Positions 7,557 to 62,843 of a stretch of DNA of 64,000 bases are shown here, one piece after another; the first letter of the stretch is position 1; every line of letters starts with the position of its first letter. A model generated the notes under the pieces. It saw nothing but the letters and a program-made list of their open reading frames with translations. It was not told the origin of the DNA and ran no database searches. The translations under genes were made by a program, and so were the position numbers. The stretch comes from Halorubrum alkaliphilum. Its GTDB lineage: Archaea > Halobacteriota > Halobacteria > Halobacteriales > Haloferacaceae. The stretch lies in assembly GCF_017873815.1 (NCBI RefSeq), contig NZ_JAGGKQ010000010.1:1-64000 (forward strand), given 5' to 3'.

Positions 7557-8741
7557 ATGGACCCCGATGCCCTCCGAGACGCCCTCAACCGATGGGTCGA
7601 AGAAGATGTGATAGACGAGTCGACTGCGGCGCGCATCCGCGCGTTCGAGACGAGCGAGACCGAATTCGAGTCGGACGACGCGGGCGAGGATGGGCTCCTC
7701 GGCGACCGGCGCGTCGTCGTCGCGCTCGCCCTGATGGGTGGTGCGCTGATCGCGGTCGGGGTCGGGACCTTCCTCTTGGAGCGCTGGGAGTCGATCCCAG
7801 TCGGCCTCCGGGCACTCGTTCTCCTCGGCGTCCCGCTCGCGGCGACAGGCGGTGCCGTCCACCTCGGCGACCGGTCCCCGCGAACCGCACACGGTCTGTG
7901 GCTGCTGGCGGCGCTTTTCACCGGCGTTACCCTGTTCCAACTGGCCGAACTGTTCTCGATCGCCGATGTGGAGGGGCTCGACGCGTGGCTCTGGCTGGCG
8001 TGGGCCGCCGTGGCGATCGGAATCGGAAGCGGCCTCGACTCCCGCCCGGTGACCGTCGTCGGCGTCGCCGTGGGACTGGGCGCGATCGCCGCTGCCGTTC
8101 CGGGGAACGCGTTTCTCGTCGCCGGGTTCTACGGCGGGATCGTGTACGCCGCAGGGGTGCTCACGGACGTGACGCTGCCGGAGGCAGGTGATGAAGCGAC
8201 GACCGAGGCATCGCCGACTCGGTTCGCGGGGACGCTCCGGTGGGTCGGCGGCGCGTTCGCGGTCAGCGTGATCGCGGCCATCGGCGTTTCCGGATCGCCG
8301 CCGCCGATCACGGACGACCCCGGAACCGTCGCGATCGCGGGTGCGGCCGCGGTGGCGGGGGTCGTCGCAGTCGCCCGATCGTGGCGCAGCGAGCGGGCGA
8401 GATACGCGGCCGCACCGGCGATCGCCGCGCCCGCGAGTCTCGGGATCGCGTGGGCGCTCGGGGGCGTCGGACTCGACGAGGTGGTCGTCGCCGTGGTCGG
8501 ACTCGCCTGTCTGCTCGGACTCCTCCTCGCGCTCGTCGTCGCGGCCGTCGGGCTCCAAGAGGCCGCGCTCGTCAACGTCGCGACGCTCGGGTTCGTGCTC
8601 GGGGTCGGTGCCTTCCTCGTCGGTCCCGTCGCCGACGTCACGTCCGGGCCGCTCGCGCTCGTCGCCGCCGGCCTCGTCCTGCTCGGTGCCGGGCTCGGCG
8701 CGGAGCGAGGACGACGCGAGGTGCTCTCGCGGATGGGGTGA
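7557..8741 (+). CDS. DUF2157-type multi-spanning membrane protein
   Basis: A 394-residue protein. The N-terminal 40 residues (MDPDALRDALNRWVEEDVID...RIRAFE) form a soluble helical head typical of DUF2157 proteins, followed by roughly ten to twelve hydrophobic helices from about residue 56 to 385. A charged linker (EAGDEATTEASPTR) divides the membrane part into two halves. No catalytic motif is visible. DUF2157 proteins are of unknown function in bacteria and archaea. The gene stands alone, and its 3' end faces the repeat element A and the convergent DUF424 gene. Confidence 0.75.
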   Translation: MDPDALRDALNRWVEEDVIDESTAARIRAFETSETEFESDDAGEDGLLGDRRVVVALALMGGALIAVGVGTFLLERWESIPVGLRALVLLGVPLAATGGAVHLGDRSPRTAHGLWLLAALFTGVTLFQLAELFSIADVEGLDAWLWLAWAAVAIGIGSGLDSRPVTVVGVAVGLGAIAAAVPGNAFLVAGFYGGIVYAAGVLTDVTLPEAGDEATTEASPTRFAGTLRWVGGAFAVSVIAAIGVSGSPPPITDDPGTVAIAGAAAVAGVVAVARSWRSERARYAAAPAIAAPASLGIAWALGGVGLDEVVVAVVGLACLLGLLLALVVAAVGLQEAALVNVATLGFVLGVGAFLVGPVADVTSGPLALVAAGLVLLGAGLGAERGRREVLSRMG

Positions 8742-8951
8742 GACAGGCCACGATCGAACCGAGAGGCTTCGTTGAAACGCTTCGATATTGGTGACGTGAA
8801 CAACATCGGGAATGAGATCGTATTCAACAGACATCTGAGCGGCAGCGACGCTCACTTATAAACGGACAAAATGGACAATCGTGGTGGCGCGCGCGGGAAG
8901 CGCGCGCGAGGGAGTTGCGGTCGTCCCGGAGCGAAGCGACGGGCGACCGCA

Positions 8952-9009
8952 ACGAGGCTGGGGAGGCGTGAGGTGCGGTGGCGGTGTGGGGTGGGACTCA
9001 AAGGGGCAG
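8952..9009 (+). ncRNA. Conserved 58-nt G-rich core of element A (candidate structured RNA)
   Basis: This segment begins ACGAGGCTGGGGAGGCGTGA and ends GTGGGACTCAAAGGGGCAG. It is almost identical in copy B (39774-39831) and in reverse in copy D (62676-62733), while the surrounding sequence differs. It is followed by one arm of a stem that covaries between copies. Transcription has not been shown; calling it an RNA is inference. Confidence 0.45.
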
Positions 9010-9100
9010 TCGCGAGGACGAAGCACGCTGCGGCAAGCACCGCAGGAACGAGCGGAGCGAGTGACAAGGAGCACAGCGAAGCGCGCGAGTCCTCGCAACT
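9008..9100 (+). other. Covarying long-range stem in element A
   Basis: AGT-C-GCGAGGAC at 9008-9019 pairs with GTCCTCGC-A-ACT at 9089-9100 (11 of 12 positions, one C-A mismatch). The same-position stems in copy B (AGCCACGAGGAC with GTCCTCGTGGCT) and copy D (GCCGGACT with AGTCCGGC) have different sequence but remain paired. Confidence 0.7.
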
Positions 9101-9351
9101 GGGGCTTTGACAGTGTTCACCGTCGATCCGCAGTCGCTGACTTATAAACGGATCATTCAGGATCTGGAAGCATCCAGTACCACATCAACCACTTATAAAC
9201 AGCCGCCAGCAACACCACTTGCTCGCTTATAAACAACTACTCCACCGTATTGCGAGACCCACTCCCGAAATCGCTCGATACCCGCACTCCAGCGACCGGC
9301 TGTTTCGGTCGACGGTCCGTCTGAAGGGTGGGTTTTGGTGGAGACCCGGGT

Positions 9352-39771: not shown

Positions 39772-39773
39772 TG

Positions 39774-39831
39774 ACGAGGCTGGGGAGGCGTGAGGTGCGG
39801 GTGCTGTGCGGGGTGGGACTAAAAGGGGCAG
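39774..39831 (+). ncRNA. Conserved 58-nt G-rich core of element B (candidate structured RNA)
   Basis: Starts ACGAGGCTGGGGAGGCGTGA and ends GTGGGACTAAAAGGGGCAG. Only a few positions differ from the copy A core. In B an extra 50-nt hairpin-forming insert follows before the covarying stem. Confidence 0.45.
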
Positions 39832-39885
39832 GGAGCGGGGCCGACCGGAGGGAGGCCCCGACAGCGAACGGGCCGGAGGCCCGTG

Positions 39886-40029
39886 AGCCACGAGGACGAA
39901 GCACGACGACGCAAGCAGCGTGGCGCTACGCGCCACGGGAAGCCGGTAGCGGAGCCGCCGGCGACACCGCAAGGAGCGAGTGAAACGAGCGACTGAGGAG
40001 CACAGCGAGTCGCGCGAGTCCTCGTGGCT
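39886..40029 (+). other. Covarying long-range stem in element B
   Basis: AGCCACGAGGAC (39886-39897) and GTCCTCGTGGCT (40018-40029) are fully complementary over 12 bp. Copy A has a different sequence in both arms (AGTCGC and GCAACT on the outer side), still largely paired. Confidence 0.75.
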
Positions 40030-40235
40030 GGGGCTTTGGAGGCGTTTACCGCCGATCCGCCAGCAGCCAGTTATAAGCGAGCGACTGGGGCTTTGGACGC
40101 ACTCACCGCGTCAGCAACGACTTATAAACAGCCGACAGCAACACCACTAGATCACTTATAAACAACCGATCGGCCATATCGATATACCCACTCCCGCCAT
40201 CGTTCGCTGCGTCGCCGCCATTGAACTCGGGTATA

Positions 40236-49243: not shown

Positions 49244-49643
49244 CGGGAGTAGATCGGATATACTGAGACGGTGGTGTTTATAAGCGAGAGAGCGGTGTTG
49301 CTGGCGGCGGTTTATAAATGAACGAGGCAAGGGATATCTCTTCTAAATCCCCAGCTCTCCGTTTATAAGTCGGAGACTGCGGATCGACGGTGAAGGCCTC
49401 CAAAGCCCCAGCCTCGTCGCTGGCGGCGGCAGCCGCCAGCGACTCCCTCGCGGTTCGGGGCTCGGAGAGCCGCTCACCGAGGCGCGGGGCGAGAGCGACG
49501 CTCTCGCTAGCAACCGGCGGCGGAGCCGCCGATGACGCCACCGTGTCGTCCATTTATAATCGATCGTCGCGGCCGCTCACAGTCTTTTACATTCGATCAC
49601 GTCGCTGCCGATGTGAGAAACTCACTCCCGAGATCACTCACTA
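49244..49643 (-). repeat. Modular TTATAA/hairpin element, copy C (reverse, lacks the core)
   Basis: About 400 bp between convergent pdxS and thrB. Read on the minus strand it starts TAGTGAGTGATCTCGGGAGT (49643 downward), then TGAGCGGCCGCGACG and TTATAA (49554-49559). Hairpins are GGCGGC-TCC-GCCGCC, GCGAGAGC-GTC-GCTCTCGC and a perfect 12-bp stem with 4-nt loop (49416-49443). Then come GAGGCTGGGGCTTTGGAGG, TTATAA (49363-49368), the 34-bp spaced pair (49310, 49276) and the end ACTCCCG (49244-49250). The 58-nt core and covarying stem are missing. Flank 49124-49243 has one more TTATAA (49157) and no gene. Confidence 0.85.
49416..49443 (-). repeat. Perfect 12-bp hairpin in element C
   Basis: GTCGCTGGCGGC, loop of four, GCCGCCAGCGAC. 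It sits between GAGGGA and GAGGCTGGGG, the same position as different hairpins in copies A and B. Confidence 0.85.
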
Positions 49644-62438: not shown

Positions 62439-62608
62439 GTCGAGCGTGGGTTCGTGAGTGAGCCGTAAAGCGGCGTCGGACGATGACGGCGATGACGTGG
62501 TTCTGATACATGGTTGACTGGGGGTCAGCGGTGGAGACTTTCAAAACCCCAGCTGCTTACTTATAAACGGTTGAGCACGGATCGACGGTGGACACCCCCA
62601 AAGCCCCA

Positions 62609-62673
62609 GCCGGACTTGACCTCCTCCCACGACTGAAGTCGTGGGCTCTCTCCTGCATTCTCTGTAGTCCGGC
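62609..62673 (-). other. Covarying long-range stem in element D
   Basis: GCCGGACT (62609-62616) and AGTCCGGC (62666-62673) form a perfect 8-bp stem at the place occupied by GCGAGGAC/GTCCTCGC in copy A. Both arms differ from A and B, but pairing is kept. Confidence 0.7.
62626..62645. repeat. IS200/IS605-like terminal palindrome inside element D
   Basis: CCCACGACT, GA, AGTCGTGGG. This resembles the end palindrome of haloarchaeal IS1341-type elements as I remember them. No transposase gene accompanies it. Confidence 0.6.
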
Positions 62674-62843
62674 GACTGCCCCGTTGAGTCCCACTCCGGA
62701 CAGCACCCGCACCTCACGCCTCCCCAGCCCCGTCACCGCACCACACTGATTTATTTAAGTATCGTCGTCTCCGTCGGATTCCCGCCTTCCGATCGACGGA
62801 TCCGTCGGCGCTCGCGTGCGCGTTTCTCGCGGCTATAACAGCA

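Follow-up and report, generated by a model that had tools for sequence, protein, structure and literature searches.

Do paired base changes between two distant arms, seen in three copies within one stretch of DNA, mark a conserved helix, and what carries that helix? The question arises from the window, by which we mean the whole 64,000-nucleotide stretch of Halorubrum alkaliphilum DNA that was analysed, where the original prediction had one stem forming at a homologous place in copies A, B and D. We find that this stem lies within a dispersed, non-coding element that occurs throughout haloarchaea and that has, on the + strand, the order GGG-Y-GGG-ACT-P4a-GGG-P4b-GGG-P4a'. The inner helix, P4b, is the predicted stem; it varies freely yet stays complementary. 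The outer helix, P4a, varies by compensatory swaps only, and the GGG/GGG loop between the two hardly varies. These sequence features suggest a family of structured RNA (or single-strand DNA) that has so far gone unrecognised.

The stem and the element that contains it

The three-copy stem itself held up. In copy A, AGTCGCGAGGAC (9008-9019) and GTCCTCGCAACT (9089-9100) form 11 of 12 Watson-Crick pairs, the sole exception being C9011.A9097; the full + strand arms of P4b, supported by covariation, are C plus AGTCGCGAGGAC (9007-9019) and GTCCTCGCAACT plus G (9089-9101). Copy B pairs AGCCACGAGGAC (39886-39897) with GTCCTCGTGGCT (40018-40029) at 12 of 12 positions, and copy D, on the minus strand (62599-62692), pairs GCCGGACT with AGTCCGGC at 8 of 8. 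The extra insert claimed for copy B is present as about 56 additional bases between the end of GGGGC (39829) and the stem. The stems do lie at a homologous place, except that copy D has extra bases at its stem base and its register is thus not exactly identical. The further suggestion that flanking AAAG and CTTT could pair was right in substance and off by one base in its coordinates: they belong to a five-pair helix, P4a, formed on the + strand by CAAAG (8999-9003, from compensatory pair counts) and CTTTG (9105-9109, from covariation). Between P4a and P4b, a conserved GGG at 9004-9006 faces a conserved GGG at 9102-9104. Copies B and D carry one lesion each in P4a (ACTAAAAG and CTCAACG). An unguided fold of the copy A region recovers P4a, P4b and the G.G loop between them, together with two 5' hairpins, P1 and P3 (z -3.5); the minus strand folds well too, as expected because of the inverted repeats.

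Copy A lies between convergent genes within the dispersed element and covers approximately 8764-9290 on the + strand if longer flanks common to some own-genome copies are included, its outer ends not being sharply defined. Copy B spans 39773-40206 (+ strand) and copy D 62578-62746 (minus strand), and copy C (49275-49598, minus strand) consists of 5' and 3' portions only, the core being absent.

In Halorubrum the element is made up of two hairpins (P1 and P3), a core rich in G, the P4 domain and one to five copies of a 3' unit of ~58 bp. The 5' module of copy A contains, on the + strand, P1 (8888-8906; CGCGCGC/GCGCGCG around a GGGAA loop, from the sequence and its minimum-free-energy fold) and P3 (8915-8952; TTGCGGTCG.../...CGACCGCAA, from the fold and 282 copies, in which stems exceed the length found in shuffled sequence and 93 distinct 5' arms occur). 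The conserved core CGAGGCTGGGGAGGCGTGAGGTGCGG follows at 8953-8985 (+), with most columns conserved at 0.88-1.00 over 313 copies; every own-genome copy found has an intact core, and its 14-base anchor is nearly identical among them. Next comes GGGTGGG (8989-8995, +), an instance of GGGYGGG in which two G-tracts, candidate quadruplex strands, are joined by a one-base pyrimidine linker; GGG directly precedes YGGGACT in 255/264 Halorubrum copies, and GGGY is present in 37 of 47 copies collected class-wide. At the loop positions G faces G in 260-261 of the 264 Halorubrum copies and in 122-123 of the 123 class-wide ones. Inside P4b, additional helices occupy 9020-9088 (+), where two inner pairs reach E<0.05, and this inner hairpin is inverted in 8/260 copies. 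The 3' unit, CTGGGGCTTTG ... TTATAA, runs from 9099 to 9147 on the + strand, with its TTATAA at 9142-9147; it is often tandem, with two to five units in 159/273 copies. Because of its nearly equal length we considered the 58-bp repeats of HF2, which were rejected as they show different motifs and no phage match was found.

TTATAA direct repeats stand towards both ends of the element in many Halorubrum copies. The 5' box of copy A lies at 8856-8861. In 146/267 copies, compared with 0/211 background segments, TTATAA precedes the GCGGTGGCGCG anchor by no more than 45 nt, mostly by 6-9 nt (19 nt in copy A). On the other side, TTATAA lies exactly 31 nt past CTGGGGCTTTGG in 114 of the 153 copies having it. 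A reading of TTATAA as the element's own promoter was rejected: the box stands 7-9 nt before the 5' module, probably too near for an archaeal TATA box to yield a transcript containing the whole of P1, and it also occurs 31 nt after the 3' end.

Smaller modules were seen within the element. Twin-hairpin inserts, of the form stem-TGGCA-stem-GAC in either orientation, occur in L013, L039, the window (39829-39886) and other copies, at several positions inside P1, P3 and P4, as if a smaller module had moved within the element. In L360, a hairpin of ~55 nt is inserted in the GGGYGGGACTGAAAGG motif, with GGGACTGA on both sides as an apparent 8-bp target duplication.

Covariation of the two P4 helices

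We collected 313 copies, 264 of which contain both sides of P4. The original prediction read the paired changes as a conserved helix and named R-scape as the check; we ran an equivalent, an APC-corrected G-test against a null of alignments simulated on an inferred tree (200 for the 65-copy set), in which indels are not modelled and a tree is assumed although copies recombine. Five column pairs reached E<0.05 in an alignment of 65 Halorubrum copies (A1), all in predicted helices and three of them within P4b, and 11 did so in 123 class-wide copies, where each of the 13 top-ranked covarying pairs falls in P4a or P4b. In the 123-copy set the P4b pairs are partly ascertained, as they were used in choosing partners, and the P4a pairs are not. 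Significant pairs thus rise above the tree-based null and lie entirely in helices, which supports the conserved-helix reading.

Several other measures agree with this. Standard pairs fill 98.4% of cells in A1 compared with 86.9% after shuffling, and only 19-55% when the alignment is slid by 1-3 columns; its covariation score of 0.340 (versus 0.116) was matched by 0/500 shuffles, and both pairing and covariation lie above every shuffle and every slid control. Among 143 distinct arm pairs, the nine top APC-corrected mutual-information values all lie on the diagonal. For P4a, pair 2 is A-T in 230, G-C in 29, G.T in three and A.C in one of the 264 Halorubrum copies, where independence would give 26 A.C, 28 G.T and 3.6 G-C. 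Across the class (123 copies), pair 1 swaps from C-G (58 copies) to G-C (62), and pair 2 is A-T in 102 and G-C in 16. Of 47 copies taken from genera other than Halorubrum, 46-47 keep P4a and the loop intact, and all P4b pairs vary among them.

P4a also allowed a prediction made in advance, that GGAAG would be found opposite CTTCC. We evaluated it on 20 newly fetched loci, placing partners via P4b and GGG only and accepting stem scores of at least 7. Eleven of the 12 GGAAG copies had CTTCC and the twelfth had CTTTC, which retains pairing through G-U; of four GAAAG copies three had CTTTC and one a lesion, and four loci lacked a recognisable stem.

Occurrence across genomes and turnover at single sites

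A search of the whole own Halorubrum genome returned 67 matches, which fall at about 40 places. All 22 same-genus genomes sampled were positive, as was one genome from another family, and the named records that carry the Halorubrum form are nearly all Halorubrum. More broadly, GGGACTSRAAGGGGC occurs in 127/194 haloarchaeal genomes, with a reversed-sequence control that is almost always zero, and 42 of the 65 haloarchaeal genera sampled share the helix-GGG/GGG-helix trait; the related pattern GGGYGGGACTSRAAGGGG was found in 0/164 genomes of the phylum outside the haloarchaeal class. Counts from exact patterns are lower bounds. Copy number differs greatly even between sister species, with four copies in G019 and 169 in G053.

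P4a differs between genomes. G029, from another family, has the identical arrangement with GAAAG/CTTTC replacing CAAAG/CTTTG, and P4a is near-uniform within some genomes (CGAAG in 19/20 listed copies of G015, GGAAG in 13/14 of G075) despite P4b stems that differ among the same copies. A uniform P4a beside differing P4b points to a factor that reads the G-loop in trans, or to conversion confined to the core.

The minimal form of the element is only about 120 nt long and is present in 55 plasmid records. The Halorubrum core was not found in plasmids or phages, nor did the core pattern match viral contigs; short-motif matches in 31 viral contigs were judged to be chance because none had the element's stem with its partner. 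In 11 plasmids (L447-L450 and L452-L458), from at least nine genera and five families (hosts Halomarina, Halobacterium, Halorientalis, DL31, Halorarius, Haloprofundus, Haloplanus, Halobaculum, Haladaptatus and Natronorubrum), a minimal element lies 423-594 nt upstream of a divergent gene for an OB-fold 'DNA-binding protein'. It sits in a conserved structured intergenic stretch whose opposite-side gene varies, and several of these plasmids are typed MPF_T; element and OB-fold gene may form a maintenance or transfer module. Head-to-head pairs of minimal elements, ~31 bp apart, were seen in several genomes (L361, L376-L378, L382, L384). In one genus, six loci (L362, L364, L365 and L368-L370) have a second conserved structured stretch upstream, CCGCGCGGCCAAGCGAGTGCCGGATGGGTGAAAGCCCGGCAGCGCAACG, so that the 3' ends of various larger structured RNAs may be formed by the P4 domain.

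With respect to genes, 62 of 147 placed copies lie in convergent gaps and 20 in divergent ones; the gaps at these loci total 189 convergent, 168 divergent and 421 tandem. Between tandem genes the element points either way almost equally often (37 versus 28), which speaks against the RNA reading. Gene calls are heuristic, annotated plasmids excepted.

Individual sites show both persistence and loss. At one intergenic orthologous site the element lies in the identical place and orientation in 13 Halorubrum species, at full length in 12. Own arms of the 12 full-length copies pair at ~11.6 of 12 positions, compared with 8.0 of 12 when arms are mixed between species over all 13 copies. L255 and L256 agree in one half but not in the other, a pattern suggestive of exchange among copies. 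L251 is a near-empty site that retains a single TTATAA, and L247 and L249 retain remnants. The copy A site is without the element in the other species examined; presence at one site and absence at the other imply that copies come and go, and the wide spread in copy number together with the empty window site is more in keeping with a mobile repeat than with an essential RNA. At the orthologous site, L257 and L258 contain a short two-gene segment that by eye has the look of a ribbon-helix-helix/RelE-type toxin-antitoxin; it adjoins a shortened element in L257 and replaces the element in L258.

A probable folded strand on a mobile repeat, and rival readings

Mismatches offer a view of which strand folds. 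On the + strand, P4b stems with no more than three mismatches contain 48 G-U and 15 A-C (p=2e-5), a polarity that becomes a weak signal when position 3 is left out (28 versus 15, p=0.03). P3 leans the same way (G.T 8, A.C 2), and the class-wide comparison is flat (G-U ~4, A-C ~3), its counts being too small for bias. A mismatch count over inverted repeats of the whole element (G.T 25, A.C 29 at K=5) was without strand bias and was discarded as too noisy. Tolerance of G-U over A-C suggests that the + strand acts single-stranded, most likely as RNA, although deamination of C on an exposed top strand is an alternative source of the G-U excess.

We favour, with a probability of roughly 55%, a reading in which the element is a folded single strand, most likely RNA, that rides on a mobile, homogenised repeat and has a quadruplex and a protein partner. 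The + strand would act in folded, single-stranded form, most likely as RNA in intergenic or 3'-untranslated transcripts. Four G3 tracts are conserved, as a G-quadruplex would require, and the upstream GGGYGGG could combine with the GGG/GGG loop to form one. Haloarchaeal cells hold multimolar potassium, in which these tracts would probably form a quadruplex stacked on the duplex; G-loop and P4a together are the probable recognition site of a trans-acting factor. Copies would spread and vanish like a transposase-less repeat, and gene conversion probably homogenises them, keeping the core alike and swapping whole stems. The most likely role would be that of a protein-binding or stabilising structure in transcripts, presumably to the benefit of the host. 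A bolder version, which we consider less likely than not, would be a haloarchaea-specific, high-copy, transcribed RNA family with a three-tetrad quadruplex clamped between two helices and bound by a haloarchaeal protein that co-evolves with it and makes P4a base pairs switch genome-wide.

The strongest rival, to which we give somewhat better than a one-in-four chance, is that the element is purely a transposase-less mobile repeat of PATE or REP/BIME type, whose + strand folds as single-strand DNA and is read by a transposase, of Y1 type or another. Selection would then maintain the structure for its mobility and not for any role as a host RNA. Occupied and empty orthologous sites, the large copy-number differences, TTATAA at both ends with one box left in near-empty L251, the + strand bias and the inverted and inserted hairpin modules would all follow. 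Against this, G018 has at least 82 copies and no Y1 transposase match, 0 of six Y1 loci in three genomes resemble an autonomous version, old copies at orthologous sites have stayed intact and not decayed, and TTATAA ends are not class-wide, being absent in G029 and the other families examined.

Known haloarchaeal repeats provide the closest comparison. The PATEs, SMRs and MITEs of Haloquadratum walsbyi are transposase-less, dispersed and palindrome-rich, and are defined by transposon-linked features, either palindromes near the termini or terminal inverted repeats; PATEs are heterogeneous in form, and core deletion between direct repeats is known (PMC3119063). Our element is likewise haloarchaeal, dispersed, palindrome-rich and transposase-less, and the core loss of copy C resembles PATE core deletion, but it is defined by an internal helix-GGG/GGG-helix with covarying arms. 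An IS200/IS605 (PATE-type) origin was rejected on the basis of G018 and of Y1 loci that are unlike the element, and the element showed no link to IS605 ends. A unit bounded by terminal inverted repeats, GGCTCTGTTGAAATCC, encloses some own-genome copies; these termini flank just a few copies and are absent from most, and a MITE was rejected on this ground. The GGCTCTGTTGAAATCC repeat itself was seen at C6:35690-36277 (L224, L028), with flanks TTATAACT/TTATAATT, and at C18:54397-54855 (L234), with an element core in one copy and none in the other.

REP/BIME sequences of enteric bacteria, which are associated with RAYT Y1 transposases, are hairpins that occur between genes in high copy number, often close to where a gene ends (3'). 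The element shares each of these traits but is longer and multi-domain, with a G.G internal loop and GGGYGGG, and differs from the REP/BIME-RAYT pairing in the lack of a Y1 transposase in the genome with at least 82 copies. OLE, GOLLD and ROOL are large ornate bacterial non-coding RNAs that are long, multi-hairpin and covarying, with modular insertions. The element resembles them in all of these respects; unlike them, it is a candidate RNA only, occurs in tens to hundreds of copies per genome and has a minimal form of ~120 nt.

A second rival dispenses with single-strand selection, attributing the paired arms to template switching, arm-to-arm gene conversion or a DNA cruciform. Gene conversion is reported to be efficient in haloarchaea (PMC8223754), and the inverted inner hairpins represent arm-based rearrangement at the DNA level. 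Yet arm-to-arm copying would make GGG face CCC, and GGG faces GGG nearly always, between two covarying helices, while the P4a swaps are tidy compensatory pairs. A cruciform would show no G-U/A-C bias, since the complement of G-U is A-C and both strands fold. We consider this explanation improbable. That the element is a TnpB/IscB-type omega RNA or another described RNA family is highly unlikely, for although IS200/IS605 omega RNAs (Rfam RF02656/RF02657) exist in haloarchaea (PMC12558985), Rfam 15, these two families included, gave 0 matches in the window at the gathering threshold and in 8700-9350 at E<=1, and the loci examined do not systematically adjoin tnpB.

The favoured reading, a folded strand on a mobile repeat, describes an element that is apparently unannotated. 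Its sequences were not found in a relevant context in open-access papers; subscription literature lay outside the search, and a prior description there is possible. The literature text searched on intrastrand-triplex repeats makes no mention of haloarchaea. With four G3 tracts and a hairpin as one linker, the element resembles quadruplex-duplex hybrids; general G4 density in archaea is described in the consulted part of PMC7565180, where a conserved quadruplex-in-a-helix motif of this kind does not appear.

If the element acts as RNA, few families of structured RNA elements in archaea would exceed it in abundance; if it acts as single-strand DNA, it would be a repeat family carrying an unusual recognition signal. 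In either case, its unannotated copies confound haloarchaeal surveys of repeats, G4 motifs and small RNAs. Two helices around three conserved G.G oppositions, in multimolar potassium, would make it a natural test case for quadruplexes in vivo, and a P4a that is near-uniform within genomes and switches between them makes a trans-acting partner testable by phylogenetic profiling.
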